Below, in pieces: positions 23,140-39,181 of a stretch of DNA of 64,000 nt; the first letter of the stretch is position 1; every line of letters starts with the position of its first letter. The DNA lies in the NCBI RefSeq assembly GCF_900114635.1, contig NZ_FOTQ01000006.1:186001-250000 (forward strand). Direction: 5' to 3'. Source of the stretch: Shimia aestuarii. Lineage in GTDB: Bacteria; Pseudomonadota; Alphaproteobacteria; Rhodobacterales; Rhodobacteraceae. The notes beneath the pieces were generated by a model that saw only the letters and a list, made by a program, of their open reading frames with translations, was not told the origin of the DNA and searched no databases. The position numbers were made by a program, and so were the translations under genes.

Positions 23140-23844
23140 ATGTCCGATCTTTGGGATGGCTTGTCGCAGGCCTGGATACTCCTTTGGACCCTCGATGCCG
23201 ACCTGGTGGAGATCACCGCACGGTCGCTGCAGGTGACATTGACTGCGTTGGCTATCGCATCGGCTATTGCCCTGCCGCTTGGCGCGTTTCTCGCAGTGCG
23301 CAGGTTCCGGATGCGGCGGTTGACCATCGCGGTGTTGAATGCGTTGATGGGGTTGCCGCCGGTCGTGGTGGGGCTTGTCGTCTACGTTTTGCTGAGCCGC
23401 GCGGGCCCCTTTGGCGTTCTTGGGCTCTTGTTCACGCCGACGGCTATGATCATAGCGCAAGTCATCATTATCGTACCATTGATCGCTTCGATCGCTCACC
23501 AGGCTCTGCGCGAATTGTGGTCGGATTACCATGATCTGCTGATTTCATTAAATACCAGCCACGTACAACGGATGTCAGCACTGTTATGGGACGGGCGTAG
23601 AGCGCTTTTGACGGCGTCGCTTGCCGGATTTGGTCGGGCCATCGGTGAAGTTGGAGCCATCATGATTGTTGGGGGCAACATAGACCATCACACGCGGGTG
23701 CTCACGACAGCGATCGCGCTCGAGACAGGCAAAGGAGACTTCGCGTTGGCGCTGGCGCTTGGGTTCATCTTGATCGGTCTTGCAATAGCCGTGAACCTTG
23801 CGATCCATTGGTTGACGAGGACGGAACAGGAGGGGCGCTGGTGA
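23140..23844 (+). CDS. tupB: Tungstate ABC transporter permease TupB
   Basis: This 234-residue inner-membrane permease has five or so hydrophobic segments beginning with LQVTLTALAIASAIALPLG. The permease-ATPase coupling loop is in the WDGRRALLTASLAGFGRAIG region. GEVGAIMIVGGNIDHHTRV is a signature of TupB/WtpB-type oxyanion permeases. The ATG at 23140 has a GGAGGGG site. It forms a tight operon with the ATPase (4-bp overlap) and binding protein (4-bp overlap). Its position beside the formate dehydrogenase locus suggests that it supplies tungsten to that enzyme. Confidence 0.9.
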   Translation: MSDLWDGLSQAWILLWTLDADLVEITARSLQVTLTALAIASAIALPLGAFLAVRRFRMRRLTIAVLNALMGLPPVVVGLVVYVLLSRAGPFGVLGLLFTPTAMIIAQVIIIVPLIASIAHQALRELWSDYHDLLISLNTSHVQRMSALLWDGRRALLTASLAGFGRAIGEVGAIMIVGGNIDHHTRVLTTAIALETGKGDFALALALGFILIGLAIAVNLAIHWLTRTEQEGRW

Positions 23845-24554
23845 GTGACATGTTTCCCCTGATCGTCGAAGGCGCGCTGACACGGCGGCGTGGCAAGGTA
23901 CTGGTCGGTCCAGTCGACTTGCGGCTTGAAGCCGGAGGCGTGACAATAGTCATCGGCCCTAATGGAGCAGGCAAGACGTCGCTTCTGCGGATGCTTCATG
24001 GTATTGCGCGTTTGAACGCGGGACGCATCGAATGGGCCTGTGGGCAGGAGCGAGCACGCGAGAAACAGGCGTTTGTATTCCAGACGCCAGTAATGCTACG
24101 CCGGTCTGTGCGTGACAATCTGGCCTATCCGCTGCGCCTTGGCGGGGTAACGCGACGCGAAGCGCGCGCGCAGGCTGATGCTATGGCTGAGAAAGTCGGG
24201 CTTGGCGATGCACTTGGACGACCGGCCACTGTTTTATCAGGTGGTGAGCGTCAGAAGCTAGCGCTGGGGCGGGCGCTAATACGGTCGCCGCAGGTGCTGT
24301 TTCTGGATGAGCCCTGCGCCTCCTTGGATGGACGGGCAATGCGCGAAGTCGAAGAGATTCTGAAGACTGCTGTGCAGGATGGCGTCCGCCTGATCATGTC
24401 GACGCACAACATGGGACAAGCCCGGCGATTGGCGAGTGAGGTTCTTTTTCTTTTAGGGGGAAAGATCCATGAGCGGGGCAGTACAGTGGAGTTCTTTGAT
24501 GCACCGAAAACGGCGCAAGCGCGCGCTTTCCTGAACGGAGATATTGTAGAATGA
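23841..24554 (+). CDS. tupC: Tungstate ABC transporter ATP-binding protein TupC
   Basis: This 237-residue ATPase has Walker A GPNGAGKTS (about residues 38-46), the Q-loop in AFVFQTPVMLRRSV, signature LSGGERQKLALGRAL, Walker B VLFLDEPCASLD and the switch His in STHNMGQARRL. It is small, with no TOBE or molybdate-binding extension, as expected for TupC and unlike ModC. I set the start at the GTG at 23841, which overlaps the permease stop and follows AGGAGGGG. Confidence 0.88.
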   Translation: MSDMFPLIVEGALTRRRGKVLVGPVDLRLEAGGVTIVIGPNGAGKTSLLRMLHGIARLNAGRIEWACGQERAREKQAFVFQTPVMLRRSVRDNLAYPLRLGGVTRREARAQADAMAEKVGLGDALGRPATVLSGGERQKLALGRALIRSPQVLFLDEPCASLDGRAMREVEEILKTAVQDGVRLIMSTHNMGQARRLASEVLFLLGGKIHERGSTVEFFDAPKTAQARAFLNGDIVE

Positions 24555-25351
24555 AGACCTTTTTTGTTGCCGTTGCCGCGGTCGCAGCGATGTCCGCGGT
24601 GGCGTGGGCGGAGGACATGAAAATGGCAGTCACGACGTCGTTTCACAACTCGGGACTGTCCGACATCCTGCTGCCTGCAATCCAGGAGGATCTGGGGCTC
24701 GAGGTACAGCTTCTTGTTGTTGGAACCGGCCAGGCGCTTCGTTTGGGGGAAGCCGGGGACGTCGACGCAATCCTTGTACATTCAAAGAAAGCGGAAGAAC
24801 GGTTCCTTGCCGCGGGGCACGGCACGCACCGTCTCGAAATCATGTATAACGATTTTGTCTTTATCGGGCCCAAGGCGGATACGGCCTCCGTTGCGGATTC
24901 TGCGAATGCGGCTCAGGCACTACAGCAGATCGCCAGCACTGAATCCGTGTTTGTTAGTCGCGGTGATGACAGTGGGACCCACAAGAAAGAGCTTAGCCTT
25001 TGGGCGAGCGCGGGTCTGGATCCACAGAGCTTAGGCGATTGGTATCGCGCTGTGGGTGCAGGCATGGGAGCTGCGTTGAATACCGCGTCGGGCATGGATG
25101 CTTACATCATTTCTGACAGGGCAAGCTGGTTGAATTTTGGCAACAAAGGGGAGTTGGCATTGCTTTACTCAGGTGACCCCGTGCTGTTCAATCAATATGC
25201 CTATATCCCTGTGAATCCCGACAAACACAGGCATGTGAAAAACGATCTGGCGATGAAGCTTGAGAATTGGTTGGTGTCGGATCGGGCGAAAGACCTGATC
25301 AACACCTATAAGATCAATGGTGAAACGCTTTTTGTGTTCAACGCCAAGTGA
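24551..25351 (+). CDS. tupA: Tungstate-binding periplasmic protein TupA
   Basis: This 266-residue binding protein has a signal peptide (MKTFFVAVAAVAAMSAVAWA). The mature N-terminus has the oxyanion-binding pattern TTSFHNSGLSDILLPAIQE, followed by VGTGQALRLGEAGDVDAIL and the SRGDDSGTHKKEL segment, all typical of TupA. It overlaps the ATPase by 4 bp. TupA proteins bind tungstate with very high selectivity over molybdate. The gene ends just before a strong bidirectional hairpin. A shortened relative of this domain occurs in the cytochrome fusion at 27901-28656. Confidence 0.92.
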   Translation: MKTFFVAVAAVAAMSAVAWAEDMKMAVTTSFHNSGLSDILLPAIQEDLGLEVQLLVVGTGQALRLGEAGDVDAILVHSKKAEERFLAAGHGTHRLEIMYNDFVFIGPKADTASVADSANAAQALQQIASTESVFVSRGDDSGTHKKELSLWASAGLDPQSLGDWYRAVGAGMGAALNTASGMDAYIISDRASWLNFGNKGELALLYSGDPVLFNQYAYIPVNPDKHRHVKNDLAMKLENWLVSDRAKDLINTYKINGETLFVFNAK

Positions 25352-25400: not shown

Positions 25401-25880
25401 TTAGTCGTCCAGAGTTCCGTGTATCGCAAACTGTTCCAGACCGGCGTCTTGCGTTTCGATCACACGATAGGACTCGCGCACGCCTCCAGGTGTCAGGTTG
25501 CGCGCGACAGTGAGGAGTGTGTTGGCGTCGTGTTCGTCGCACAGGTCAAGCATATGCCGTAGCTCTTCGGCGGCCACCGGACGGGCAGAGACGACATCCG
25601 GCGCACCGTAGTAGGTTACAAAATGCTGCGCCAGCATGTCGGTCAAGCGTTCGATTTCCGCAGCCTGGATCGGGGTGACGGCAACAAATGTTACCCGCCC
25701 GGATGTCTCGAGACCAAACCAGCCGTTTGAAAACGCCTGACGTGCCTTACCGACAAGGTCAGCTTCGGACCAGTTCGAGAATTCGAACCCACCAGAGATG
25801 CACCACTCGCCCGTGCGGGCCGCGTTGGAATAGACGCGTGTATCGCTTTCGTCAAAATGAATGGCGCGGGCCAGTTGCAT
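25401..25880 (-). CDS. Uncharacterised protein, DUF6505-like
   Basis: This 159-residue soluble protein has no signal peptide or membrane segment. I associate it by recall with DUF6505, a family found beside alphaproteobacterial formate dehydrogenases; no function is established that I know. Visible traits are a start MQLARAIHFDESDTRVY, a central AAEIERLTDMLAQHF helix and several Asp/Glu-rich stretches. The ATG at 25880 shares its A with the upstream stop (TGATG), so translation is probably coupled to the ligase-like gene. It is the last gene of a four-gene operon and ends at a strong terminator. A role in formate dehydrogenase assembly is inferred from location only. Confidence 0.7.
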   Translation of the reverse strand: MQLARAIHFDESDTRVYSNAARTGEWCISGGFEFSNWSEADLVGKARQAFSNGWFGLETSGRVTFVAVTPIQAAEIERLTDMLAQHFVTYYGAPDVVSARPVAAEELRHMLDLCDEHDANTLLTVARNLTPGGVRESYRVIETQDAGLEQFAIHGTLDD

Positions 25881-26584
25881 CAAAGGTCCTCCAGTAGCGT
25901 ATTCAATGGGAATAGGTGGGTGGTGTTTTCGTCGCGCAAGAGCATCCCGAATTGCTCATCGACCCCGACGAAAACTCCGACGACGTCGCCTTGTGCGGTT
26001 TCCTCGCCTAGGCCGTGGGCCAACCCACGCCATTCTGCATGCAGAGGTTTTGTTCCTTCCTCTTCCCACCGGTTTACCCAGTTCAGAGTATGCCGTGCCC
26101 AACTTTCAATCAGAAGTGGTGCTTCGACATCGGCGCAGCCCTCTGCGTAGAGTGCTGTTTGATCAGGAGTATTTCCCATGTCTGCGGACGCGGGCCAGAG
26201 CGGCAGCTCGAATCCAACGACCAGCCAATCCGGTATTTCTGTCGGGGTAGACGTGCTTGCCGCCGCGCGCATACGGCCACACGATGCGCCGTTTACGCGC
26301 AGCCCACCGCCCCATTCCAGATGTACCGCCACTTCTGGTGGCGCAAGCGCTCCAAGTGCATTTTGAAAGCCTACGGCGCAGACCGGCAGCATGGTCATGG
26401 CATCGGCCAAGGGCACTTCGGGGGCAAACACAAGCGCGGCTAGTAACGTGTCAGGGGCCAGATTGTAGACGATCAGCCCCGAGTCACAGCCTGCTGCGGC
26501 CTTCATACAAGCTGTGAGGAAGGGATCCTCGTCTCCGGTCACCTGATGCCCGGACATAAGCGGAGGAAACATCACGCGGTTCAT
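25880..26584 (-). CDS. Degenerate biotin/lipoate protein ligase-like protein (DUF4444 type)
   Basis: This 234-residue protein has the layout of a BirA/LplA-type ligase: an alpha/beta catalytic-like domain (about residues 20-180) and a small C-terminal beta domain (GDVVGVFVGVDEQFGML). The motif that in BirA reads WPND...NDRKLAG appears here as EWGGGLRVNGASCGRM, without the Asn-Asp pair and without the catalytic lysine. It is therefore unlikely to make biotinyl- or lipoyl-AMP in the usual way. The start at 26584 overlaps the Mrp stop (ATGA). Its constant company with formate dehydrogenase genes suggests a role in maturation, but this is inference. Confidence 0.72.
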   Translation of the reverse strand: MNRVMFPPLMSGHQVTGDEDPFLTACMKAAAGCDSGLIVYNLAPDTLLAALVFAPEVPLADAMTMLPVCAVGFQNALGALAPPEVAVHLEWGGGLRVNGASCGRMRAAASTSTPTEIPDWLVVGFELPLWPASADMGNTPDQTALYAEGCADVEAPLLIESWARHTLNWVNRWEEEGTKPLHAEWRGLAHGLGEETAQGDVVGVFVGVDEQFGMLLRDENTTHLFPLNTLLEDL

Positions 26585-27648
26585 ACGGCACCTTGCGAAA
26601 TGAGGCCGCGGGCGACCTCCTGAAAACTGGCGGCTTGTGCACTGTCGGGGGCGGACACAACGATAGGCGCGCCGCCATCGGCAGCAACCCGGATATCCAG
26701 ATGCAACGGGATTTCGGCGAGCAGCGGGACGCCGAGTTTTTCCGCTTCGTGGGCGACTCCGCCTTGCCCAAACACGTGTTCTTCGTGACCACAGGACGAA
26801 CAGATATGGGTCGACATGTTCTCGATCATACCTAGGATGGGTACGTTCAGTTGGCGGAACATATCTATGCCCTTTCGGGCATCCAGGAGCGCCACATCCT
26901 GTGGCGTGGACACGATGATCGCGCCGTCGACATGTGCTTTCTGTGCCAGTGTCATCTGCACGTCCCCGGTGCCGGGCGGCAGGTCGACAAGCAAGACATC
27001 GAGCGCCCCCCATTGCACCTGCATCATCATTTGCTGGAGGGCTCGCATCAGCATTGGCCCCCTCCAGACAACAGCCTGATCGTCGTTGGTCATCAAGCCG
27101 ATCGACATCATCGTCACGCCATGGTTGCGCATGGGAAGGATGGTCTTGCCATCGGGGCTAGAGGGACGACCGGAGACACCTAGCATCCGAGGCTGGCTAG
27201 GGCCGTAGACATCCGCGTCCAGCAGGCCGACACGTATTCCCTCAGCCGCCAATGCACAGGCAAGGTTGGCAGACAGAGTGGATTTGCCCACGCCGCCCTT
27301 GCCGCTAGCAATGGCGACAATCCGTGCCACCCCGGGGATTTTCTCAGGCCCCTGGGGTTCGGATTTTCGTGAGGGTTGGAGATCAGGCGGCGCTGATGGG
27401 TTGCTGTGGCCTGTCAAAACCACCGAAACACTCTCGACACCGCCAAGCGCGCTGATCGCGGCCTCCGCCTGCTCCCTGACAGGAACATATGCGTCCGCTC
27501 TGGCCGGGTCGATTTCCATAACGAAACGCACGGTTCCGGAATCGACATTGAGGGCGCGCACGACGCCTGCCGAGACGATATCGCCGTGTCCGGTTGGATC
27601 GGTAATCTGTTTCAGAACGCCCAGAACGGCTTCTCGTGTAATCGCCAA
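26581..27648 (-). CDS. Mrp/NBP35-family ATP-binding protein (iron-sulfur cluster carrier)
   Basis: This 355-residue cytoplasmic P-loop ATPase carries and transfers iron-sulfur clusters. An N-terminal MIP18/DUF59-like domain (about residues 1-80, LGVLKQITDPTGHGDIVSAG) precedes the deviant Walker A SGKGGVGKST. Other Mrp marks are LLDADVYGPSQPRMLG, VDLPPGTGDVQMTL and the CSSC pair near residue 280 that binds the bridging cluster. Its start is TTG at 27648 with no close ATG, 4 bp after the DUF6494 stop; a GGGGCGGGAC stretch is the only ribosome-site-like sequence. A second copy may exist elsewhere in the genome. Here it probably helps load clusters into the formate dehydrogenase or polyferredoxin. 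Confidence 0.9.
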   Translation of the reverse strand: MAITREAVLGVLKQITDPTGHGDIVSAGVVRALNVDSGTVRFVMEIDPARADAYVPVREQAEAAISALGGVESVSVVLTGHSNPSAPPDLQPSRKSEPQGPEKIPGVARIVAIASGKGGVGKSTLSANLACALAAEGIRVGLLDADVYGPSQPRMLGVSGRPSSPDGKTILPMRNHGVTMMSIGLMTNDDQAVVWRGPMLMRALQQMMMQVQWGALDVLLVDLPPGTGDVQMTLAQKAHVDGAIIVSTPQDVALLDARKGIDMFRQLNVPILGMIENMSTHICSSCGHEEHVFGQGGVAHEAEKLGVPLLAEIPLHLDIRVAADGGAPIVVSAPDSAQAASFQEVARGLISQGAV

Positions 27649-27651
27649 CGC

Positions 27652-27843
27652 TTAGTCCCGCCCCTTGATCGTTCCTGTTACGACATGTTCCAAGCCAAAC
27701 CCTTCGATGGTGATAACGGCTTTGGCCGTAAATGATTTCCCCGAAGAATCCGCATTGCGCATGGCATCTTCGATGGCCTGCTGAGAGGTCACGCCGACCT
27801 GTTTCAGAAACTTGCGCATCGACATGTTGAAGTCATCGCTCAT
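27652..27843 (-). CDS. Small uncharacterised protein, DUF6494-like
   Basis: This 63-residue acidic protein (MSDDFNMSMRKFLKQVGVTS start) has no membrane segment. I link it by recall to DUF6494. A helix-rich N-terminus with QQAIEDAMRNA is followed by a short beta-rich part (FTAKAVITIEGFGLEHVVTG). The ATG at 27843 follows AAAAGGA. It is the first gene of the minus-strand operon with Mrp, the ligase-like protein and DUF6505, and diverges from the TupA-cytochrome fusion over 57 bp. Function unknown; a formate dehydrogenase accessory role is suggested by position. Confidence 0.65.
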   Translation of the reverse strand: MSDDFNMSMRKFLKQVGVTSQQAIEDAMRNADSSGKSFTAKAVITIEGFGLEHVVTGTIKGRD

Positions 27844-27900: not shown

Positions 27901-28656
27901 ATGGCCCATTGGTTTCGCATGTCCATTCTGGCGTTGATTGCCTCGTTTTCGTGGGCGGGGCAGGGCGGCACGAATGAACGCATTTTCACGATGTCTGCTG
28001 CTCCGGAGATTGTCGAGAGCGGTCTCTTGCAGTTCATTTTGCCCCGGTTCTCGCTCAAGACACAGGTGCGTATTACACTCGTTCAGGCAGGGGAGGCGGC
28101 AGATGTGCGTCTTGGAGAGCATGGAAAACCAGTGTTTTCCCGGTTTGGTCGGATTTGGCGCATGCAGGTGCACAACTCCGGGCATGGCGGCGTGCAAAAG
28201 TTCTCTGACTGGATCGCGTCCGACGTTGGTCGGAGCACGATCATAGCCTTTACTGTGGAGGGCTCCCAAGCGTTTTCTATCCCCGAGGAGGAGCAGGTTG
28301 AGGCTGTGGCCATCACGATGGACGGGAATGTCGACATGGGGCGCGAAGTCTCGCAGAGGATGTGTGGGCGCTGTCATGTAGTGGTGGCGGAGGATCGGAT
28401 GAACGCCATTGGCTCGACGCCGTCCTTTTTTGCCCTGCGCGGTCTGCCGGACTGGAACGAGAGGTTCGCAGCATTCTATGCCCTGAACCCGCATCCCGCA
28501 TTCACGCAGGTGGCCGAGGTTACACCGCCCTTCGCACAAGATCGCCCATCGCCCATCGTGCCATTGGAGATGACGCTTGAACAAGTCGAGGCGGTTCTTG
28601 CCTATGTCTCTTTGCTTAAGCCTGCCGATCTTGGGGCGCCGTTGGAACATCAGTGA
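27901..28656 (+). CDS. Periplasmic cytochrome c with shortened TupA-like N-terminal domain
   Basis: This 251-residue protein has a signal peptide (MSILALIASFSWAGQGG core) and a heme c site CGRCH at residues 155-159. Before the heme domain, residues 30-130 resemble TupA. VESGLLQFILPRF and LVQAGEAADVRLGEHG match the first TupA lobe, and GVQKFSDWIASDVGRSTI with VEGSQAFSIP matches the last 45 residues, while about 150 central residues of TupA are absent. A distal methionine may be supplied by the PLEMTLEQVEAVLAYV end. It diverges from the accessory operon and its end overlaps the convergent polyferredoxin gene by 7 bp. It may be an electron carrier for formate dehydrogenase; whether it binds an oxyanion is unknown. 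Confidence 0.8.
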   Translation: MAHWFRMSILALIASFSWAGQGGTNERIFTMSAAPEIVESGLLQFILPRFSLKTQVRITLVQAGEAADVRLGEHGKPVFSRFGRIWRMQVHNSGHGGVQKFSDWIASDVGRSTIIAFTVEGSQAFSIPEEEQVEAVAITMDGNVDMGREVSQRMCGRCHVVVAEDRMNAIGSTPSFFALRGLPDWNERFAAFYALNPHPAFTQVAEVTPPFAQDRPSPIVPLEMTLEQVEAVLAYVSLLKPADLGAPLEHQ

Positions 28657-30599
28657 TCGCGCCGTTTGCTGAGGTAGTCGTCGGTTGTGCGGGGTTTGGG
28701 GCGCTCTCCCCCGGCAAACGGGTTGTTTTGGGCGTGGTATTGCGCACTTACGCGGCAGTTGTCGCACATCTGGATCATCCTGGCGGCTTCGGGGCTCTGG
28801 AACATACCATGCTTACCCGCCAGTTTTTCTGTAATCTTGTCGATTGTGGACTTGACGCCAAACAGGGCACCGCATTCGATGCAAGCAAAGGGTTCTTCTT
28901 CGTTCAGGACCACTTGCTCCAGCGCCGAGTTTGTGAGGTTCATCCGCGGCTCGTAGGTGATTGCGTTTTCAGGACAAACCCGAGCGCAAAGGCCACATTG
29001 AAGGCATGCATCTTCTTGAAACCGCAATTGGGGCAGGTCGGGATTGTCTCCAAGAGCGCCGGAGGGACAAAGCGAAATGCAGGAGAGGCAGAGCGTGCAC
29101 GCATCGGTATCCACGAGCACCGCGCCGTAAGGTGCGCCTTGAGGCAAGGGCAGAATTTCGGCATCCGGTTGTAAGGCCTTTGTGGCAGTGCGTGCGATTT
29201 GACGTCGCGTGCCCATGGGACGCGACGGAATTTTCAGAGCATCGACACCGCTCGGTGCAAAGAGTGTCTTCGACAAAATGTCCGGATCCTGGGTGTCAAT
29301 CATGCGAATGGCTTTGCCCGAAAGGGCGGTCGCCAGATCGATCTCGGATTGCATGATGTCCCGATCGGTCTTTGGGGTTGGGTGGATGTTAATGTCTGCG
29401 AATCCGGCAGCGAGAGCGGCCAGCATTTCCGAGTGGCCGATGGTGTTGAGTGCTTCAACTTCCAGAGGAATGACATTGGCCGGCAGTCCTTGCCCGAAAC
29501 GGGCGGATACACGGATCAACTCTGCCCCGTCAGCACCAATTATCAATAGCCTCGGCTCGACGCCGCCCGCGTCGAGATACGCTTTGGCCAACGTTTGCAA
29601 GCGGCGGATGGTTTGGTCTACCGCGGGGGCATCATATGCAATCGCACCGGAAGGGCACAACGAGGAGCAGGCACCGCAGCCTGCGCAAATCATCGGGTCG
29701 ATCGAAACATGTTCGCCAGAGGGTGTGATAGCCCCTGTCGGGCATGCGTCAATGCAGCGCGTGCAGCCCGTTTGTTCGGCCCGCGAGTATGCACAAAGCA
29801 GTGGTTCGGTGCGGACATAAAGCGGCTTCTCGAAGGTACCGACCATGTGCGACGCGTCAAGAATGGCGCGCGCCACCGCAGTTGCACTTTTCGGGTCGGC
29901 CCGAAAATACCCCTCGCGTTTTTCGGGAGCTGGAAACAGGGGGGGGGTTCCGCGCAGATCTAAAATAACATCGCACTTCGATTTCGCGTTGTTCTTTGGA
30001 GATGTGAAAGCCCACTGGCCTCCGCCGTGTGTAACCATTTGGCAAAAGCCGTCAATTGTGACGTCGAAGTTCCCGAGTGCGCCTTGGGCGGTTTTTAGAT
30101 GCCCCCGAACTACGTCATAATCGCGGGTGAACGGGACAGAGGTATCGTCTTCGATTAGTACCGTTACGCTTAGGTAGTTCTTGAGTTGTTCTGCCGCCAA
30201 CATCGCAGGTTCCTCGGAACCTAGGATCAGGCATAGCCCCTCTGAAATCACGTCAACGGACTTGGCAGCAGGGATCGAGAGGGAGGCTTCGGCGACCAGT
30301 GCGGTCATTTTGGGTATTCTTGACCCGGTGTCTGCACTCCAACCCGCGCGATCTCGCAGGTCGAGGAAGGCAGGTAAGGGGGCTCCCAAACCGTCGGCCA
30401 TTTCTTCGAAAAGGGCGGTTTCCTGGCCGCAACAAAAAATTGCATCACCTGCGGACAATGCCCTTACCGCGTCTTGCTGCTGGTCCTGACAAAGGGATGT
30501 ATGGACGCGGGAGCAAGGGAGACCGGTGGCCTGTGACAGGGCGTCGGAGTCTATGGGGTTCGTGCCGCAACAGTCACATAAAATCAGTGTCTTAGTCAT
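28650..30599 (-). CDS. Polyferredoxin with four 4Fe-4S motifs, formate dehydrogenase locus
   Basis: This 649-residue cytoplasmic protein has two ferredoxin pairs. The first is CTRCIDACP (from residue 279) and CAGCGACSSLCP (about 305). The second is CTLCLSCISLCP (about 495-510) and CLQCGLCARVCP. The N-terminal 260 residues contain further cysteine clusters (LCDCCG, FCCG, a lone CDVILD), and the C-terminus carries separated pairs CIEC and CDNC that could bind zinc or another cluster. It resembles the ferredoxins annotated beside DUF3305/DUF3306 formate dehydrogenase operons. The ATG at 30599 follows GGGATAAC. It diverges from the DUF3305 operon. It probably moves electrons during assembly of, or from, the dehydrogenase; the direction is unknown. 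Confidence 0.82.
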   Translation of the reverse strand: MTKTLILCDCCGTNPIDSDALSQATGLPCSRVHTSLCQDQQQDAVRALSAGDAIFCCGQETALFEEMADGLGAPLPAFLDLRDRAGWSADTGSRIPKMTALVAEASLSIPAAKSVDVISEGLCLILGSEEPAMLAAEQLKNYLSVTVLIEDDTSVPFTRDYDVVRGHLKTAQGALGNFDVTIDGFCQMVTHGGGQWAFTSPKNNAKSKCDVILDLRGTPPLFPAPEKREGYFRADPKSATAVARAILDASHMVGTFEKPLYVRTEPLLCAYSRAEQTGCTRCIDACPTGAITPSGEHVSIDPMICAGCGACSSLCPSGAIAYDAPAVDQTIRRLQTLAKAYLDAGGVEPRLLIIGADGAELIRVSARFGQGLPANVIPLEVEALNTIGHSEMLAALAAGFADINIHPTPKTDRDIMQSEIDLATALSGKAIRMIDTQDPDILSKTLFAPSGVDALKIPSRPMGTRRQIARTATKALQPDAEILPLPQGAPYGAVLVDTDACTLCLSCISLCPSGALGDNPDLPQLRFQEDACLQCGLCARVCPENAITYEPRMNLTNSALEQVVLNEEEPFACIECGALFGVKSTIDKITEKLAGKHGMFQSPEAARMIQMCDNCRVSAQYHAQNNPFAGGERPKPRTTDDYLSKRRDH

Positions 30600-30941: not shown

Positions 30942-31511
30942 GTGATCTACAATTCGGGAAAGTTCGAAGCGATGCCGATGGGCATCGTGCTGCGGCGGCG
31001 GCCCGGTGCAACCCGGTGGGCGGCGTGGAGCTGGCGTGTTTCAGATGTTCTCCCGGGCGCGTCAGGTGCAGAGTGGCGTCTTTTGCGCGAAGAGGGGGGT
31101 ATCCGCGAGTTTCACGCAGCAACCCTTCCGTTGGAATTGCACAGAGCTGATACCGATTCATACTTGCACGGGCTGAACGCACAGGTGCCCTGCTTGTATG
31201 TCGTGATGCGTGAGGCCGATGAAATGCCTCATCCCTTCGAGCTGGTTTTGGTGACCGCGTCACCCTACGAAGCGCAGGACTATGCCGACAATGGCGAGGA
31301 CATTGTCGAAAAGGTCGCCATGCCTCAGAGCGTGTTTGCGTGGGTCCAAGGGTTTGTTGATCAGCATCACAGAGAAGAGGCATTCAAGAAACGCAAGCGC
31401 GACAAGAAGGACATCACGTTGACATCTGATGGCGTTGGCGATGCGCGCATCCGTCAGTTGGTCGACGTTTATCGTTCGCCGGCTCTTGCCAAAAAGGAGC
31501 GTTTACAATGA
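30942..31511 (+). CDS. DUF3305 domain protein, formate dehydrogenase accessory
   Basis: This protein of up to 189 residues matches DUF3305, a family located beside Tat-exported formate dehydrogenases. Characteristic is the start MPMGIVLRRRPGATRWAAW, then WSWRVSDVLPG and a segment DSYLHGLNAQVPCLYVVMRE. The GTG at 30942 gives the longest form; the ATG at 30972 (GGGAAAG upstream) would begin exactly at MPMGIVLRR and is about as likely. It has no signal peptide. The C-terminus (REEAFKKRKRDKKD) is very basic. It overlaps DUF3306 by 4 bp. Function unknown; it probably helps assemble FdhA. Confidence 0.8.
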   Translation: MIYNSGKFEAMPMGIVLRRRPGATRWAAWSWRVSDVLPGASGAEWRLLREEGGIREFHAATLPLELHRADTDSYLHGLNAQVPCLYVVMREADEMPHPFELVLVTASPYEAQDYADNGEDIVEKVAMPQSVFAWVQGFVDQHHREEAFKKRKRDKKDITLTSDGVGDARIRQLVDVYRSPALAKKERLQ

Positions 31512-32131
31512 GCCGTGGAGACTTCTGGTCGCGGCGCATGGCTGCTGTGGAAGCGGAGCAGCTTGCGGAAGAGCGCGCGCTTGCCGAAGAGGCCGTGGCC
31601 GAGCGGGATTTGGCGCTGGCTGAAAAGGCGGACGAAGAAATTCTCGAAGAATTGGGGCTGCCCGACCCGGACACGCTCTCGGAGGGGGATGACTTCACGG
31701 CGTTCCTGACAGAAAGAGTTCCCGCGCGATTGAAAAACCTAGCGCTGCGGCGCCTGTGGACGACAAACCCGGTATTGGCAAATGTCGACGGGTTGGTCGA
31801 CTACGGCGAAGATTTTACCGACGCGGGCAACGTTATCGAGAACCTCCAGACAGCCTATCAGGTTGGCAAGGGCATGACTGCGCATGTCGAAGCGCTGATG
31901 CGCGGGGAAGAGGTGGTGGTCGTCGCTGACGCCGAAGAGCTAGACGAAGCTCTGGAGCCTGAGGGCGAAGAGGTGCGCGCCCTTGCTTTGGCTTCAGAGG
32001 ACAGTGCGAGCGCCGCCGCGGTCGAGATGGGCGTCGCCGCCGATGAGATAGAAGACATTTCAGGCATCGCGGCGATGCGGGCGCCAAGACGGATGCGGTT
32101 TTCGTTTAACGAAACCGAGGCAAGCGCATGA
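31508..32131 (+). CDS. DUF3306 domain protein, formate dehydrogenase accessory
   Basis: This 207-residue protein matches DUF3306, always paired with DUF3305. The N-terminus SRGDFWSRRMAAVEAEQLAE is followed by a long Glu/Ala-rich helix. The conserved core is FTAFLTERVPARLKNLALRRLW and VDGLVDYGEDFTD (about residues 63-105). The remaining half is acidic and low in complexity, ending MRAPRRMRFSFNETEA. No signal peptide or cysteine motif is seen. It overlaps the genes on both sides by 4 bp, indicating translational coupling. Its role in dehydrogenase maturation is inferred. Confidence 0.82.
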   Translation: MSRGDFWSRRMAAVEAEQLAEERALAEEAVAERDLALAEKADEEILEELGLPDPDTLSEGDDFTAFLTERVPARLKNLALRRLWTTNPVLANVDGLVDYGEDFTDAGNVIENLQTAYQVGKGMTAHVEALMRGEEVVVVADAEELDEALEPEGEEVRALALASEDSASAAAVEMGVAADEIEDISGIAAMRAPRRMRFSFNETEASA

Positions 32132-32754
32132 ATGGAGAAAGCCAGATGACGGCAACCGCAATTTCAGAAAATGTGGCACAGGAAGATCGCCTTCGCGCGG
32201 ATCTTTACAATTTTCTGGGTCTGCTGCTGGCTGGACCTCCGGATGAGTTGCTGCTTGCACAAACGGCCGATTTGGCAGGCGATGAAAGCCCACTTGGGGT
32301 GGCAATCAACGCGCTTGCGAAGATTGCAAAACTGTCCAAGCCGAAGACTGTTGAGCGCGAGTTCAACAAGCTGTTCATTGGTCTGGGGCGGGGCGAGTTG
32401 CTGCCCTATGCCAGTTACTATCTCACGGGATTCCTGAACGAGAAACCGCTGGCTACCCTGCGCCAAGACATGAACGCGCGCGGATTAAACCGTGCAGAGA
32501 ATGTCTATGAGCCTGAGGACAATGTCGCTTCGCTCATGGAAATGATGGGCGCTCTGATCGTGGGGCGGTTCGGGACACCTGCACCGCTCAGCGATCAGAA
32601 GACCTTTTTCAATCGCCACATCGCCACGTGGGCGGGGCATTTCTATTCGGATCTAGAAGCTGCCGAAAACTCGGTCTTCTATGCATCGGTTGGCGCTGTC
32701 GGCCGAGTGTTCATGGAGATCGAGACCGAAGGCTTTCGGATGAGCGCGGGCTAG
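32128..32754 (+). CDS. TorD-family chaperone for formate dehydrogenase
   Basis: This 208-residue all-helical protein fits the TorD/DmsD redox-enzyme chaperones that bind the Tat signal of a molybdo- or tungstoenzyme before export. Visible traits are LRADLYNFLGLLLAGPPDELL near the N-terminus and the family core EREFNKLFIGLGRGELLPYASYYLTG (E-x2-FN-LFIG...G-PYASYY). The ATG at 32128 overlaps the DUF3306 stop; a second ATG at 32146 is also possible. It lies directly before the small Tat peptide gene and fdhA, its presumed client. Confidence 0.87.
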   Translation: MNGESQMTATAISENVAQEDRLRADLYNFLGLLLAGPPDELLLAQTADLAGDESPLGVAINALAKIAKLSKPKTVEREFNKLFIGLGRGELLPYASYYLTGFLNEKPLATLRQDMNARGLNRAENVYEPEDNVASLMEMMGALIVGRFGTPAPLSDQKTFFNRHIATWAGHFYSDLEAAENSVFYASVGAVGRVFMEIETEGFRMSAG

Positions 32755-33108: not shown

Positions 33109-36006
33109 ATGCTTAGGAAAAAGACCAACGGGGTTGCGAGACGCCCCCAGCGGACAAGTATCCTGTCTGATGTCGCGGAGAAATCCGTTGACCGCCGCGC
33201 GTTTTTGCGCGGCAGCGGTCTGGCCATTGGGGGCCTTGCCGCGATCAGCGCCACCGGAGGCACGGTGACGCAAGCCAATGCGGCCGCCAGCGCGACCGCC
33301 GGCGCGGTCAAGACTGTCAAATCGGTCTGCACCCATTGTTCGGTTGGCTGTACCGTTGTTGCCGAAGTGCAGAACGGTGTCTGGGTCGGGCAGGAGCCCG
33401 GTTGGGACAGCCCATTCAACCTTGGCGCCCATTGCGCAAAAGGAGCCGCAGTCCGCGAGCACGCCCACGGTGAACGCCGCCTCAAGTACCCGATGAAGAA
33501 AGAGGGCGGTGAGTGGAAGCGCATCAGCTGGGAACAGGCGATCAACGAGATCGGTGACGGCATGATGAAGATCCGCGAAGAGAGCGGACCTGACAGTGTC
33601 TACTGGCTCGGCTCGGCCAAGCACAACAACGAACAGGCCTATCTGTTCCGCAAGTTCGCCGCCTATTGGGGCACGAACAACGTGGATCACCAGGCCCGGA
33701 TTTGTCACTCGACCACGGTGGCAGGTGTTGCAAACACCTGGGGCTATGGTGCGATGACGAACTCGTATAACGACATCCACAATTCCAAGGCGATCTTCAT
33801 GATCGGCTCGAACGCAGCCGAAGCACATCCGGTTTCGCTCCTGCACATCCTGAAGTCCAAGGAACAGAACAACGCGCCGCTCATCGTGTGCGATCCGCGT
33901 TTCACCCGCACCGCGGCCCATGCCGACGAATATGTGCGCTTCCGTCCTGGGACGGACGTTGCGCTGGTCTGGGGCATCCTTTGGCACATCTTCGAAAACG
34001 GCTGGGAGGACAAAGAGTTTATCCGCACCCGCGTGTGGGGGATGGACCAGATCAAGGAAGAAGTGGCTAAGTGGACCCCAGAAGAGGTTGAGCGCGTGAC
34101 GGGCACTCCGGGTTCACAGCTCAAGCGTGTGGCCCGAACTATGGCCAACAACCGTCCCGGCACCGTGATCTGGTGTATGGGTGGTACGCAGCACACCAAT
34201 GGTAACAACAACACCCGCGCCTACTGCATTCTGCAGCTTGCGCTGGGCAACATGGGTACCAGTGGTGGAGGCACCAACATCTTCCGTGGCCACGACAACG
34301 TGCAGGGTGCAACCGACCTTGGCGTTCTGTCCCATACCCTGCCGGGCTACTATGGTCTGTCCAAAGGGGCTTGGGGTCATTGGGCGCGCGTCTGGAAGGA
34401 AGATCCCGAGTGGCTTGCCGGACAGTTCGACAAGATCACCGGAAAGGACGGCAAGGAAAAGTCCCTGCAGAACCTGACTGGTATCCCGGTGTCGCGCTGG
34501 ATCGATGGTATCCTTGAAGACAAGGAAAACATGGATCAGCCAAACAACGTGCGGGCCATGGTTCTCTGGGGCCACGCGCCGAACTCGCAAACCCGCGGGC
34601 CGGAGATGAAGACGGCGATGGAGAAGTTGGACATGCTGGTCGTTGTCGACCCGTTCCCGACGGTCTCCGCGGTTCTGCATGACCGCACTGATGGCTGCTA
34701 TCTGCTCCCGGCTGCGACGCAGTTCGAAACCCGTGGCTCGGTCACGGCGTCGAACCGCTCATTCCAGTGGCGGGATCAGATCATGGAACCGCTGTTCGAA
34801 TCCAAGACCGACCATGAAATCATTGGTCTGTTTGCCAACAAGTTCGGCTGGGCCGATCGTTTCTTCCGCAATATCGAGATGGAAGACGAGAATACCCCGA
34901 ACATTGAAAGCGTGACCCGCGAATTCAACAGCGGTCTTTGGACGATCGGTTACACCGGCCAAAGCCCGGAGCGGATCAAAGCGCATATGGCAAACCAGCA
35001 CACCTTTGACCGCACGACTTTGCGCGCCAATGGTGGTCCGGTGGATGGGGACTATTACGGTCTTCCCTGGCCATGCTGGGGCACGTCCGAAATGGGTCAT
35101 CCGGGGACGCCGAACCTGTACGACATGTCCAAGCCGGTCTCTGAAGGAGGTCTTACCTTCCGCGCCCGCTTTGGTGTCGAACGGGACGGCGACAACCTTC
35201 TGGCCGATGGGGTCTATAGCGCGAATTCGGAAATTCAGGATGGCTATCCCGAGTTCACGATGCAGATGCTGATGGACCTTGGCTGGGACAAGGATTTGAC
35301 CGACGAAGAGCGCGCGGCGATTGATGCCGTGGCTGGTCCCAAGACCAACTGGAAGACCGACCTTTCCGGCGGGATTCAGCGGGTGGCAATCAAGCACGAA
35401 TGTGCTCCCTTCGGCAACGCCAAGGCACGCGCCGTTGTGTGGACCTTCCCGGATCCGGTGCCGTTGCACCGGGAGCCGCTCTACACGCCACGCCGTGATC
35501 TGGTTGGGGATTATCCGACATACGAAGACCGCAAGTTCTATCGTCTGCCGACCATGTATGCCTCGATTCAGAAGAACGACTTCTCGAAGGATTATCCGAT
35601 CATCCTCACATCCGGCCGTCTGGTCGAGTACGAGGGTGGCGGTGACGAGACCCGTTCGAACCCATGGCTGGCAGAGTTGCAGCAGGACATGTTTGTCGAG
35701 ATTCACCCGAGGGACGCCAACAACCTTGGTATTCGCGACGGATCTCAGGTCTGGGTCGAAAGCCCCGAAGGCGGCAAGGTCAAGGTTATGGCAATGGTCA
35801 CAGAGCGGGTTGGTGAAGGCGTGGCCTTCATGCCTTTCCACTTTGGTGGGCATTTCCAGGGCGAGGACCTGCGGGCGAAATACCCGACAGGCGCCGACCC
35901 TTATGTGTTGGGTGAAAGCTCGAACACGGCCCAGACCTATGGCTATGACTCAGTCACGCAGATGCAGGAGACAAAATCGACTCTCTGCAAAATCAGCGCA
36001 GCATAA
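33109..36006 (+). CDS. fdhA: Formate dehydrogenase alpha subunit, Tat-exported (FdhA)
   Basis: This 965-residue molybdopterin-family oxidoreductase oxidises formate to CO2, probably in the periplasm. It has a Tat signal (DRRAFLRGSGLAIGG, residues 28-42). The 4Fe-4S site is Cys74, Cys77, Cys81 and Cys109, and Lys111 is the usual electron-relay lysine. The metal ligand and catalytic histidine are Cys199-His200 in QARICHST, where E. coli FdnG has selenocysteine. The C-terminal molybdopterin-binding domain begins near residue 830 (PIILTSGRLVEYEGGGDETR). Tungsten rather than molybdenum is suggested by the neighbouring tupBCA. It is followed 12 bp later by fdhB. Confidence 0.95.
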   Translation: MLRKKTNGVARRPQRTSILSDVAEKSVDRRAFLRGSGLAIGGLAAISATGGTVTQANAAASATAGAVKTVKSVCTHCSVGCTVVAEVQNGVWVGQEPGWDSPFNLGAHCAKGAAVREHAHGERRLKYPMKKEGGEWKRISWEQAINEIGDGMMKIREESGPDSVYWLGSAKHNNEQAYLFRKFAAYWGTNNVDHQARICHSTTVAGVANTWGYGAMTNSYNDIHNSKAIFMIGSNAAEAHPVSLLHILKSKEQNNAPLIVCDPRFTRTAAHADEYVRFRPGTDVALVWGILWHIFENGWEDKEFIRTRVWGMDQIKEEVAKWTPEEVERVTGTPGSQLKRVARTMANNRPGTVIWCMGGTQHTNGNNNTRAYCILQLALGNMGTSGGGTNIFRGHDNVQGATDLGVLSHTLPGYYGLSKGAWGHWARVWKEDPEWLAGQFDKITGKDGKEKSLQNLTGIPVSRWIDGILEDKENMDQPNNVRAMVLWGHAPNSQTRGPEMKTAMEKLDMLVVVDPFPTVSAVLHDRTDGCYLLPAATQFETRGSVTASNRSFQWRDQIMEPLFESKTDHEIIGLFANKFGWADRFFRNIEMEDENTPNIESVTREFNSGLWTIGYTGQSPERIKAHMANQHTFDRTTLRANGGPVDGDYYGLPWPCWGTSEMGHPGTPNLYDMSKPVSEGGLTFRARFGVERDGDNLLADGVYSANSEIQDGYPEFTMQMLMDLGWDKDLTDEERAAIDAVAGPKTNWKTDLSGGIQRVAIKHECAPFGNAKARAVVWTFPDPVPLHREPLYTPRRDLVGDYPTYEDRKFYRLPTMYASIQKNDFSKDYPIILTSGRLVEYEGGGDETRSNPWLAELQQDMFVEIHPRDANNLGIRDGSQVWVESPEGGKVKVMAMVTERVGEGVAFMPFHFGGHFQGEDLRAKYPTGADPYVLGESSNTAQTYGYDSVTQMQETKSTLCKISAA

Positions 36007-36018
36007 GGAGAAAGAGAA

Positions 36019-36612
36019 ATGGCAAGATCCAAGTTCCTCTGTGACGCCGAACGCTGCATTGAATGCAACGCCTGCGTCACGGCTTGCAAAAACGAACACG
36101 AGGTTCCGTGGGGGATCAACCGCCGTCGCGTGGTGACCCTGAATGACGGCAAACCCGGTGAGCGTTCGCTCTCGGTGGCCTGTATGCACTGTTCGGACGC
36201 GCCATGTATGGCCGTTTGTCCGGTGGATTGCTTCTATCAGACCGAAGAAGGTGTGGTGTTGCACTCCAAAGACCTGTGCATCGGTTGTGGCTATTGCTTC
36301 TATGCATGCCCGTTTGGCGCACCGCAATATCCGCAGGCCGGTAACTTTGGCAGCCGTGGCAAGATGGACAAATGCACCTTCTGTGCCGGTGGCCCCGAGG
36401 AGAACCACTCGACCGCCGAGTTCGCCAAATACGGGCGCAACCGGATTGCAGAAGGCAAACTGCCGATCTGCGCCGAGATGTGCTCGACCAAAGCGCTTCT
36501 TGCAGGTGACGGTGACGTCGTTTCCGCGATCTACCGCGAACGCGTCGTGGCCCGTGGCTTTGGCTCGGGCGCCTGGGGTTGGGGCACAGCCTATGACCAA
36601 AAGGGCGGCTGA
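36019..36612 (+). CDS. fdhB: Formate dehydrogenase iron-sulfur subunit (FdhB)
   Basis: This 197-residue ferredoxin-like subunit carries electrons from FdhA. Four 4Fe-4S groups are visible: CIECNACVTACKNEHEV, CMHCSDAPCMAVCPVDC, CIGCGYCFYACPFG, and a last set with CTFC and CAEMC. It has no signal of its own, so it should be exported with FdhA through the Tat signal. It lacks the C-terminal membrane helix of E. coli FdnH, so anchoring must rely on FdhC. A strong hairpin follows its stop. Confidence 0.94.
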   Translation: MARSKFLCDAERCIECNACVTACKNEHEVPWGINRRRVVTLNDGKPGERSLSVACMHCSDAPCMAVCPVDCFYQTEEGVVLHSKDLCIGCGYCFYACPFGAPQYPQAGNFGSRGKMDKCTFCAGGPEENHSTAEFAKYGRNRIAEGKLPICAEMCSTKALLAGDGDVVSAIYRERVVARGFGSGAWGWGTAYDQKGG

Positions 36613-36634
36613 CCGGCCGATTGCCTGAAAGGCT

Positions 36635-36659
36635 GGAAGGCCCCTGTGCGGGGCCTTCC
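36635..36659 (+). terminator. Strong hairpin between fdhB and fdhC (attenuator or processing site)
   Basis: GGAAGGCCCC-TGTGC-GGGGCCTTCC is a perfect 10-bp stem with a 5-base loop, 22 bp after the fdhB stop. No T-run follows, so it may stabilise the fdhAB mRNA 3' end or reduce fdhC transcription rather than stop it completely. Confidence 0.55.
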
Positions 36660-36700
36660 GACACTGGATTCACAGTTTCAAACCATTGGAGGTGGGCCCC

Positions 36701-37876
36701 ATGCTGCGCGTGGCACTCGCACTTTTCCTTCTCATAGGGATTTCGGCTCAGGCCCAGACGGCCCCTGACCGAAGCGCCACAGGAGGCGCGCAGACATTGG
36801 AAGACATCATGGCGCGACAGCGCGGTGAGCCCGTGGACGATTCTGCATGGCGAAACGATGTTGGAGACCCTAATCTGGCCGCGCCAGTTCCTCAACTTGG
36901 GCCCCTTGGTGGAACGTCGGATCCGGAACTCTGGCGTGCGATCCGGTACGGATCAGCGGAAACCTCGGTCTCTGCCGGTGGTGAGGTCGCAACCGTCCTG
37001 ATGCAGGACGGGGGAATGAAGTGGCTGGAGTGGCGGCAGGGGCGTCTGCAGATATGGGGCTTCTGGATGGTGGTCGGCACAGCGGGCGCGCTTCTGACGT
37101 TTTTCCTGCTGCGAGGACGTATTCGCATCGACGAAGAAAAGACCGGACGAACGGTTACGCGTTTCAAGGCGATTGAACGCTTCGGCCATTGGCTTCTGGG
37201 GATTTCATTTCTCGTGCTGGGCCTGACTGGGCTGTTGGTCCTTTTTGGGCGTAAGTTCATTGCGCCTCTTGTTGGCAAGGACTTCAATGCAAATCTTCTG
37301 CTCGTGTCCAAAGTCGTGCACAACAGCGTATCCTGGGCCTTCATGTTAGGACTCATCATGGTTTTCGTGATGTGGGTCATTCACAATATTCCTAACCGCA
37401 CTGACATTATCTGGTTGCGCCAGTTCGGCGGCATTATTGGAAACGCGCATCCGCCAGCAAGGAAGTTCAATGCAGGTCAGAAAATGATCTTCTGGTCTGT
37501 TATCCTCTTTGGCACGATGATTTCCGCTACAGGAATTGCGCTGCTATTTCCGTTCCAGTTCCCGATATTCGGTACGATCTTTGGGGTGATGAACGAATGG
37601 GGGTTGGGTGCTCTGGTCGGCCTTGGAGACGGATCGGCCGATATGGCGCCGCATGAGCACATGCAGATGGCCCAGGGTTGGCACGCGATTGCGGCCTTCA
37701 TTCTCATGATGATCGTCACCGCCCATGTCTATATCGGATCCATCGGTATGGAGGGTGCCTTTGACGCAATGGGCAGCGGTGAAGTGGACGAGGCTTGGGC
37801 GCATCAACACCACTCGATTTGGCTCGAGGAGGTCAAGGCGGAAGCTCAAAAAGAAAAAGCCAGCCCGGCTGAGTAA
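36701..37876 (+). CDS. fdhC: Formate dehydrogenase cytochrome b subunit (FdhC, gamma)
   Basis: This 391-residue membrane subunit carries b hemes and links the dehydrogenase to the quinone pool. A signal peptide (MLRVALALFLLIGISAQAQ) precedes a periplasmic stretch of about 90 residues. A first helix lies at residues 115-135. The cytochrome b561-type core follows, with RFKAIERFGHWLLGISFLVL and FDAMGSGEVDEAWAHQHH near the end. Heme histidines are likely in ERFGHW, KVVHNSVSW and WHAIAAFI. I use the ATG at 36701 preceded by TTGGAGGT. It starts 88 bp after fdhB with a hairpin between, and a 3-bp gap separates it from the WD40-cytochrome gene. Confidence 0.9.
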   Translation: MLRVALALFLLIGISAQAQTAPDRSATGGAQTLEDIMARQRGEPVDDSAWRNDVGDPNLAAPVPQLGPLGGTSDPELWRAIRYGSAETSVSAGGEVATVLMQDGGMKWLEWRQGRLQIWGFWMVVGTAGALLTFFLLRGRIRIDEEKTGRTVTRFKAIERFGHWLLGISFLVLGLTGLLVLFGRKFIAPLVGKDFNANLLLVSKVVHNSVSWAFMLGLIMVFVMWVIHNIPNRTDIIWLRQFGGIIGNAHPPARKFNAGQKMIFWSVILFGTMISATGIALLFPFQFPIFGTIFGVMNEWGLGALVGLGDGSADMAPHEHMQMAQGWHAIAAFILMMIVTAHVYIGSIGMEGAFDAMGSGEVDEAWAHQHHSIWLEEVKAEAQKEKASPAE

Positions 37877-37879
37877 GCC

Positions 37880-39181
37880 ATGAAACGCATTGCTTGTTTC
37901 GTGTCGTTTCTGGGCTTCTGTGCCGCGACTGTCGTGGCGCAGGAATTCGAGACTTTGAAAGGTCACGGGGGACCGATCATGGGGCTTGCCGTGTCGATAG
38001 AGGGACAGGTTGTCTCCGCCAGTTTTGACAATACTCTTGGCCTCTGGTCAGGGCGGAAAGTTGCCTGGCTGGACGCACATGATGCGGCCGTGGTGTCGGT
38101 GGCTTTTCTTGAAGACGGGCGCATTGTCTCTGGCGGAGATGATTTCACAGTGAGGATTTGGGAAGATGGCCAAGCGCGCATCTTGGGGCGTCACAAAGGC
38201 AAGGTTGCTGCACTGACCGTAGCGCCTGGTGGTCAGATGGTCGCTTCGGCCAGTTGGGACGGGACCGCTGTGCTATGGCCGTTGGGGCAGGGCGAGCCGA
38301 AAATACTCTCGCCGCGCGACAGTGGCGTAAATGACGTCGCTTTTTCGCCGGATGGAACACACGCTTTTTTGGCAACGACCAAGGGCGAAGTTTTCAGGTT
38401 TGAACTGAGCGAAGACGAAGCGGCGGAACCTTTGGTTCAGCATGGATTTGGTGTGAACCGTCTGATGATGGCGCCAAATGGGGAATGGCTTGCTTATGGC
38501 GCCGTGGACGGGGGCACCCGCGTCGTTGATCCCGCGACAGGTGATGCAATCGCCGATTTCACGCTGGATCGCAAACCCATCCTCGCGCTTGCTTTCCACG
38601 CGCAGTCCGGACTTTTGGCTGTGGGGGATGGGCATGGGTATATCATGCTTGTGGACACTCAAAGGTGGCGTATTCAAAAGGATTTTCGCGCGATGCGGCG
38701 CGGCCCGGTCTGGGCGTTGGCATTCTCGCCCGACGGCGAGATGCTCTTTGCGGGTGGGCTTGATGATGTGGTCTATGGTTGGCCGCTTGCATTGATGGAT
38801 GATTTTACGCCGGTCGGCGGACAGCCCCGCAGTTTTCTGAAGGACATTGATCTGATGAGCAATGGCGAGCGCCAATTCATGCGAAAATGCTCGATCTGTC
38901 ACGCTCTTGAAGAGCAAGGAGGGCGCAAGGCAGGCCCGTCTCTGTATGGCATTTTCGGGCGACCTGCAGGAACGATGCCAGGGTATCGTTACTCGGAAGC
39001 ACTCAAGAATTCACGTATCGTCTGGAATTCCGGCACGATCGACCAACTCTTTGATCAGGGGCCCGATCACTATATTCCTGGATCCAAGATGCCTATGCAG
39101 GTGATAGCTGGGGCCAAGGATCGAAAGGATCTCATTGCTTTTATCAAGACCAAGTCTCAAGCCACGGAGAAACAGCCATGA
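37880..39181 (+). CDS. Periplasmic WD40 repeat protein fused to cytochrome c
   Basis: This 433-residue protein has a signal peptide (MKRIACFVSFLGFCAATVVAQ) and then about seven WD40-like blades (residues 25-310; for example SASFDNTLGLWSG, SGGDDFTVRIWE, SASWDGTAVLWPL, AGGLDDVVYGWPL). A class I cytochrome c domain follows with heme site CSICH at residues 337-341, a GPSLYGIFGRPAG segment and an axial methionine likely in GSKMPMQ. It lies 3 bp after fdhC. It is probably a docking and electron-carrying partner of the formate dehydrogenase, but no such role is known to me from experiment. Confidence 0.88.
   Translation: MKRIACFVSFLGFCAATVVAQEFETLKGHGGPIMGLAVSIEGQVVSASFDNTLGLWSGRKVAWLDAHDAAVVSVAFLEDGRIVSGGDDFTVRIWEDGQARILGRHKGKVAALTVAPGGQMVASASWDGTAVLWPLGQGEPKILSPRDSGVNDVAFSPDGTHAFLATTKGEVFRFELSEDEAAEPLVQHGFGVNRLMMAPNGEWLAYGAVDGGTRVVDPATGDAIADFTLDRKPILALAFHAQSGLLAVGDGHGYIMLVDTQRWRIQKDFRAMRRGPVWALAFSPDGEMLFAGGLDDVVYGWPLALMDDFTPVGGQPRSFLKDIDLMSNGERQFMRKCSICHALEEQGGRKAGPSLYGIFGRPAGTMPGYRYSEALKNSRIVWNSGTIDQLFDQGPDHYIPGSKMPMQVIAGAKDRKDLIAFIKTKSQATEKQP

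Follow-up and report, generated by a model that had tools for sequence, protein, structure and literature searches.

A predicted TupA-type lobe fused to a c-type heme domain is encoded beside formate dehydrogenase genes in Shimia aestuarii

Here we describe a gene, found in a 64,000-nucleotide stretch of DNA (the window), whose product joins a c-type heme domain to an N-terminal domain that profile comparison and structure prediction identify as lobe A of a TupA-type protein. The domain architecture is conserved and made from known parts. We found no description of such a lobe-heme protein in titles and abstracts of the open literature, a scope outside which most subscription papers fall, and the preliminary description of this DNA had likewise known of no example. 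In our judgement the chances are evenly balanced that the protein is an accessory electron-transfer cytochrome of a periplasmic formate dehydrogenase, with the ligand-free half-fold as its docking domain. The 251-residue product has a probable signal peptide, an N-terminal domain of ~105 residues and then a C-terminal CGRCH domain, and is probably exported. The heme site that had been placed behind the N-terminal domain is present, as is its reading frame. The parts of the gene are as follows.

27901–28656, forward strand: open reading frame of the lobe-A cytochrome c gene (251 residues, ATG start)
27901–27960, forward strand: probable Sec signal peptide, residues 1–20, read from the sequence
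27919, forward strand: M7, an alternative start, from the sequence
27976–28290, forward strand: TupA lobe A domain, residues ~26–130, from TupA homology and predicted fold
28000–28008, forward strand: residues 34–36, A-P-E where TupA has its tungstate motif T-T-S, from the alignment of 62 lobes
28045–28059, forward strand: R49 to K53 (RFSLK), the near-invariant Arg/Lys of the lobe family
28186–28284, forward strand: C-terminal lobe-A segment (GVQKFSDWIASDVG...GSQAFSIP), matching the C-terminal end of TupA in profile alignments
28363–28377, forward strand: heme c site CGRCH, from the sequence, with C, C and H invariant in 74/74 heme domains
28492–28494, forward strand: His198 of PHP, candidate sixth heme ligand (H in 74/74)

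The window protein alone is insufficient proof of a relationship to TupA, since the single-sequence evidence is weak. Against Pfam the cytochrome scores 14.0 bits to Cytochrom_C, below the cut-off of 21.3, and its N-terminal part has no Pfam match; against NCBIfam the full protein gives a weak TupA match (E = 0.012). The alignments of the fusion family (A1 and A2) comprise the window protein and 61 others. The starting set had 72 homologues, 71 from loci plus the window protein, from which the window's own copy (L001), duplicates (L032–L036), heme-only proteins (L051, L052), a TupA (L053) and a truncated member (L061) were removed. The 62 lobes were compared by hhalign, in separate halves, with 16 TupAs (alignment A3, using 16 of 17 and leaving out L064). 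The N-terminal half scored 50.0 on TupA columns 2–60 and the C-terminal half 58.4 on columns 214–249 of 251, compared with a best of 17.0 and 15.9, respectively, among 40 column-shuffled controls. Thus, both the first-lobe and the C-terminal segments of TupA recognised in the preliminary description are kept. When the lobe domain was used in one piece, only the first segment was aligned (probability 98.2%). The relationship is also apparent from single lobes: in a scan of 18,950 NCBIfam models, TupA was matched at E ≤ 0.1 by 29 of the 62, with values down to 2.8e-7, and every other model by one lobe at most. In Pfam, three solute-binding families were each matched by one or two members, with a best value of 2.4e-4.

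Moreover, the five best matches of the lobe profile among 177,635 PDB sequences were 3muq (4e-7), 3cvg (1.5e-5), 5my5 (4.4e-5), 3lr1 (0.0025) and 3kn3 (0.0068), and a TupA profile searched at E ≤ 0.001 returned the identical five entries, 3cvg being the remotest (7.1e-17). In the opposite direction, 35 of 36 TupAs from the fetched loci align to the lobe profile as two colinear segments with 125–143 surplus TupA residues between them, while reversed TupAs reach at most 2.6 bits and give no two-segment match. The column-shuffled and reversed controls thus rule out chance similarity of lobe and TupA. Two short colinear matches of the same kind were found in many other genomes of a 385-genome sample of the class. 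The preliminary description had looked to fold prediction and to orthologues for a decision: the predicted lobe fold is TupA-like, corresponding to lobe A, and the similarity is kept across the family homologues. Foldseek on its own returned nothing at E ≤ 0.001, its first match being TupA 5my5 at 0.006. The model of the full protein has a pTM of 0.57, so that the mutual placement of the two domains is uncertain.

Bacterial solute-binding proteins act through two lobes that close on a ligand, and here one lobe, folded by prediction, stands alone. The hinge strand that joins the two lobes is absent, as is lobe B, which comprises residues 91–200 of 5my5 (accessible text of PMC5517513). About 150 central residues had been said to be missing. 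A large central loss is indeed seen, but the spacing between Arg and Trp, with a median of 55 in the lobes (range 51–85, n = 62) and a value of 197 in TupA (range 194–198, n = 16), puts the figure at ~142, and what has gone is lobe B together with the hinge strand, and not an arbitrary middle. Longer lobes, with an Arg-Trp spacing of 70–85 compared with the median of 55, are seen in L044, L045, L046, L048, L050, L054, L062 and L064 and are possibly intermediate deletions. The oxyanion site of TupA is made up of T9–T11, S12 and H59 in lobe A and R118, T124 and D170 in lobe B (accessible text of PMC5517513). Of the motif TT(T)S, the count covered TTS: it is intact in none of the 62 lobes, and none has as many as two of these three residues. 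A sensor of oxyanion or metal state had been suggested, whereby the mini-domain would bind tungstate, molybdate or another oxyanion and report via the heme. Its fold does descend from an oxyanion-binding protein, but with the TTTS site gone and lobe B, including its three ligand residues, absent, tungstate sensing is unlikely, and we consider a sensor of this kind hardly credible.

The lobe has also gained residues. Arg49 is present in 62/62 lobes and Lys53 in 61/62, the remaining one having Arg; at the corresponding places Arg is found in 0/16 TupAs and Lys in 2/16. The two residues are spaced by one helix turn and lie on the second helix of the lobe. Across the 62 lobes P, R, W and G never vary and F and K hardly do; of these, Gly, Pro, Trp and Phe are common to TupA and have been retained. 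TupA shows no conservation of the R and the K, which points to a new constraint rather than ancestry. Taken together, the lost motif and the new near-invariant Arg and Lys make a case for a new, non-ligand function.

For the heme domain we compared 74 sequences, from the 62 fusions and 12 stand-alone proteins. CxxCH, PSF and PH are invariant in all of them. No Met is conserved at a canonical sixth-ligand position, and the sole frequent Met (42/74) lies in the loop directly behind the heme site, 8 residues past the heme His and too close for the usual ligand. With an invariant PH histidine and no conserved axial Met, His198 is the best candidate for the sixth heme ligand. PF00034 is matched at E ≤ 0.1 by 50 of the 62 members (best 4.1e-5). 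Solved cytochromes were searched with a heme profile (A5) built from 9 of the 62 fused and the 12 stand-alone domains, and assignment of the ligand by homology was abandoned: the one full-length match, to cytochrome c549/PsbV (PDB 1f1c), is nearly complete but marginal (E = 0.01, not significant), so we can only infer the ligand.

The cytochrome gene lies between genes for tungstate uptake and those of a formate dehydrogenase.

23140–24554, forward strand: tupB and tupC (ABC permease and ATPase), from reading frames and annotation
24551–25351, forward strand: tupA, full-length and two-lobed (NCBIfam TupA 5.6e-57; score of 193 bits, where the model's cut-off is 400)
25401–26563, reverse strand: DUF6505 protein and a biotin/lipoate-ligase-like protein with DUF4444, between tupA and mrp
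26581–27648, reverse strand: Mrp/ApbC Fe-S carrier (NF008669, 4.1e-104)
27652–27843, reverse strand: 63-residue DUF6494 protein, between mrp and the cytochrome gene (PF20104, 2.7e-28)
28650–30599, reverse strand: 649-residue polyferredoxin-like protein ("FdhX"), tail-to-tail with the cytochrome gene
30942–32754, forward strand: DUF3305, DUF3306 and a TorD/NarJ-type chaperone
33109–37876, forward strand: fdhA (twin-Arg motif DRRAFLRG), fdhB and fdhC (cytochrome b561)
37880–39181, forward strand: WD40 beta-propeller protein with a cytochrome c fused at its C terminus, after fdhC

A nearby TupA had been noted previously, and its gene indeed lies 2.5 kb upstream of the cytochrome gene. The cytochrome and polyferredoxin genes are convergent with a 7-base overlap of their ends (28650–28656), and these ends likewise abut in relatives G197, G200 and G173. 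DUF6505 was found in most fdh clusters examined, and our literature search found no paper on it. The occurrence of DUF3305, DUF3306 and such chaperones at fdhGHI operons has been noted in print (accessible text of PMC4464133). Given the twin-arginine motif of FdhA, the enzyme and the cytochrome should share the periplasm.

This neighbourhood is widely conserved. When 295 genomes of the same family were searched with the whole protein, 106 gave matches, none with internal stops. One (G132) was matched by its own TupA and was removed, leaving 105 genomes with the cytochrome family. Two of these (G004, G054) have the heme domain only, and 103 of the 295 have lobe and heme, a call based on query coverage, with G168, G244 and G265 matching in two pieces. 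FdhX occurs in 103 of the 105 cytochrome genomes, including 101 of the 103 with lobe and heme, compared with 34 of the 190 without the cytochrome (Fisher p = 1.7e-46, relatedness not corrected); in the two lacking it (G008, G102) contigs are cut near the gene. A survey for the fusion beside fdh genes had been proposed for this DNA, and at the level of loci FdhX was found in 36 of 37 fusion loci longer than 6 kb, the exception (L054) stopping at a contig end. Among the matches listed for 385 genomes of the class, the full-length ones from other families all belonged to family f80 (G656, G579). In 398 phylum-sampled genomes we found none outside Alphaproteobacteria at 1e-9; the 10 matches at this threshold were all from the same class or closer, and 3 were heme-only. 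A peptide-pattern scan of genome contigs found one relative only, Marinovum algicola.

The 34 FdhX-positive genomes without the cytochrome, in 20 of whose loci, fetched for inspection, none was found, imply that the formate dehydrogenase can exist without it. Their existence also bears on another reading, that of a maturation or quality-control factor, in which the heme protein would serve assembly of the exported enzyme (for example by redox control of cofactor or Fe-S sites) and the lobe would recognise the enzyme. Absence from these genomes fits such a role, as does the position of the gene outside fdhABC, between those of the Fe-S carrier (Mrp/ApbC) and the polyferredoxin, whose type suggests maturation. 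The products of these neighbours should be cytoplasmic, however, the cytochrome looks exported, and it is difficult to think of an assembly step that a periplasmic heme would carry out; we therefore regard a maturation factor as unlikely.

In other Alphaproteobacteria (L104, L105, L106, L107, L110, L112), fdh-cluster genes are accompanied by a version of the cytochrome that has no lobe. The fetched stretch includes fdhA in L104, L107, L110 and L112, and L109 has FdhX only. The fetched stretches of stand-alone L108, L111 and L113 contain no cluster genes, and stand-alone L051 and L052 are not beside fdh genes, with FdhX elsewhere in their genomes. We built a tree of 76 heme domains over 111 columns, in which 40 of 73 inner branches are open, making it a rough guide with support that is moderate at best. 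Stand-alone L104, L051 and L052 fall inside the fused group, and two changes between fused and stand-alone states are needed. This fits one lobe fusion, then a loss covering L104, L051 and L052. The lobe might be a passive remnant, or a folding or solubility spacer, of an old fusion in which the heme domain alone is functional. The heme-only relatives and the tree agree with this, as does the greater divergence of the lobe, whose mean column identity is 35% compared with 46% for the whole protein. Retention of the lobe in 103 of the 105 cytochrome genomes argues against it, as do the residues of the lobe that are invariant or nearly so (n = 62), two of which are not conserved in TupA, and we find a passive lobe distinctly unlikely.

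The origin of the lobe was examined further by comparison with the TupAs. The genomes contain two classes of TupA (TTSTxNSG and TTSxxNSG), with L053, L105 and L110, for example, differing from the window TupA. We split the classes by our own motif patterns, and the TupA of L149 (20.2 bits) is incomplete, because its stretch ends within it. The lobe profile scores a mean of 48.0 bits against the TTSTxNSG class (n = 17, with 16 of the 17 at 40–58 bits) and a mean of 26.7 bits against the TTSxxNSG class (n = 19), to which the window neighbour belongs. The window TupA is among the weaker matches at 21.9 bits, and a search of its own genome with the lobe profile reported the cytochrome alone, suggesting that single TupAs of this class are at the edge of detection. 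The better match to the other class indicates that the lobe is probably not derived from a recent copy of the neighbouring tupA.

These comparisons are relevant to whether the lobe docks on the TupB permease as TupA does, in which case heme redox would slow or adjust the uptake of tungstate. Type II binding proteins can contact the permease through either lobe. TupA is found in 103 of the 105 cytochrome genomes compared with 91 of the 190 others (a weak TupA match in G227 not counted), and 15 of the 36 fusion loci linked to FdhX have tupA inside the flank that was fetched. However, TupA is near-universal in FdhX-positive genomes with or without the cytochrome (101/103 and 33/34, respectively), so that its co-occurrence is explained by the fdh cluster, and we rejected it as evidence for docking on TupB. 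Moreover, the lobe scores best against the TupA class other than the neighbouring one, and G227 has the fusion with only a TupA match of 1.3e-4 and a TupB-like match of 29% identity, in an assembly of ~340 contigs. Docking on TupB is thus quite improbable, and a specific form, a redox-linked brake in which the ligand-free lobe and TupA would compete for a single surface of TupB, the docking strength being set by the redox state of the heme, is in our view more improbable still. Were the brake real, tungstate uptake would track either how active formate dehydrogenase is or the periplasmic redox state. Separately, G290 appears to be free of TupA; its tupB lies near a contig start, so the absence may not be real.

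Replacement of the membrane subunit FdhC by the cytochrome was considered and rejected, the low FdhC scores having come from loci that end inside fdhC. After extension of the flanks, achieved for 24 of 26 cytochrome loci and all 16 others, FdhC was found in 22 of 23 fusion clusters (the exception being L142), in the heme-only L150 and in 16/16 clusters without the cytochrome. With fdhC present in both kinds of cluster, the cytochrome is no substitute for the quinone route. As to a possible pairing with the WD40 cytochrome, the latter occurs in 16 of 24 fusion clusters, the window included, compared with 5 of 16 without the fusion (Fisher p = 0.051, relatedness ignored).

We return to the accessory electron-transfer cytochrome. 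Here, a monoheme c-type cytochrome would be exported and serve the adjacent, periplasm-facing, tungsten- or molybdenum-dependent formate dehydrogenase. Lobe A has kept its predicted fold, lost the tungstate motif and its partner lobe, and gained the Arg/Lys pair on its second helix, and would most likely serve as a docking module that keeps the heme close to FdhABC or to a redox partner. Docking on the formate dehydrogenase had been among the preliminary suggestions and is still our preferred guess. The preliminary interpretation is thus borne out in part, as regards the TupA-derived half domain, its fusion to a c-type heme domain and the tie to formate dehydrogenase genes, but not as regards sensing. 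The cytochrome would then take electrons from the formate dehydrogenase system, or pass them within it. Given that FdhC is not replaced and that formate dehydrogenase clusters without the cytochrome exist, it would be an add-on adjusting electron flow and not a core subunit. In favour of this reading we count the domain identity, the linkage to FdhX, the lobe-free cytochromes of other fdh clusters, the motif loss with the new conserved residues, CxxCH in 74/74, the periplasm expected for both proteins and the second, WD40-linked cytochrome c of the cluster. We count against it the 34 genomes with FdhX and no such cytochrome, the presence of fdhC in both kinds of cluster, the placement of L104, L051 and L052 as if they had lost the lobe, the stand-alone proteins away from fdh genes (L051, L052) or with no cluster genes in the fetched stretch (L108, L111, L113), and the uncertain arrangement of the two domains. 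The lobe is a clean case of half-domain exaptation, its ligand motif dropped and the domain kept on a cytochrome in about one third (103/295) of the sampled family genomes. Moreover, it raises a concrete question, accessible to experiment, about the partner within a formate dehydrogenase cluster that has received little study and is common in this Roseobacter-type family, of which Marinovum algicola is a named member.

No scanned Pfam or NCBIfam model covers the lobe-heme family as a whole, and its parts can be compared with several known systems. With TupA of TupABC (PDB 5my5, 3lr1, 3muq, 3kn3; NCBIfam NF041772) it has in common the lobe A fold and the N- and C-terminal segments, whereas it lacks the hinge strand, lobe B and the tungstate motif and has the new R/K pair and a fused heme domain. 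The stand-alone monoheme cytochromes c (L104–L107, L110, L112) show the same CxxCH, PSF and PH signature and the same fdh neighbourhood, but have no TupA lobe. Class I cytochromes c (PF00034, PF13442) likewise have CxxCH and a c-type domain; unlike these, the fusion protein has no conserved axial Met and has the invariant PH histidine instead. Cytochrome c549/PsbV (1f1c) is bis-His, and such ligation would fit the missing Met of the fusion, but c549 has no His at the place aligned with the candidate ligand and there is no common gene context. Fusions of c-type cytochrome domains to molybdoenzymes (accessible text of PMC6147048) also tie such a domain to molybdoenzymes, although there the partner is the enzyme itself, and the accessible part of that account contains no fusion of a cytochrome to a binding protein. 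The WD40-cytochrome c of the same fdh cluster is another fdh-linked cytochrome c joined to a non-redox domain, a propeller taking the place of the TupA lobe.
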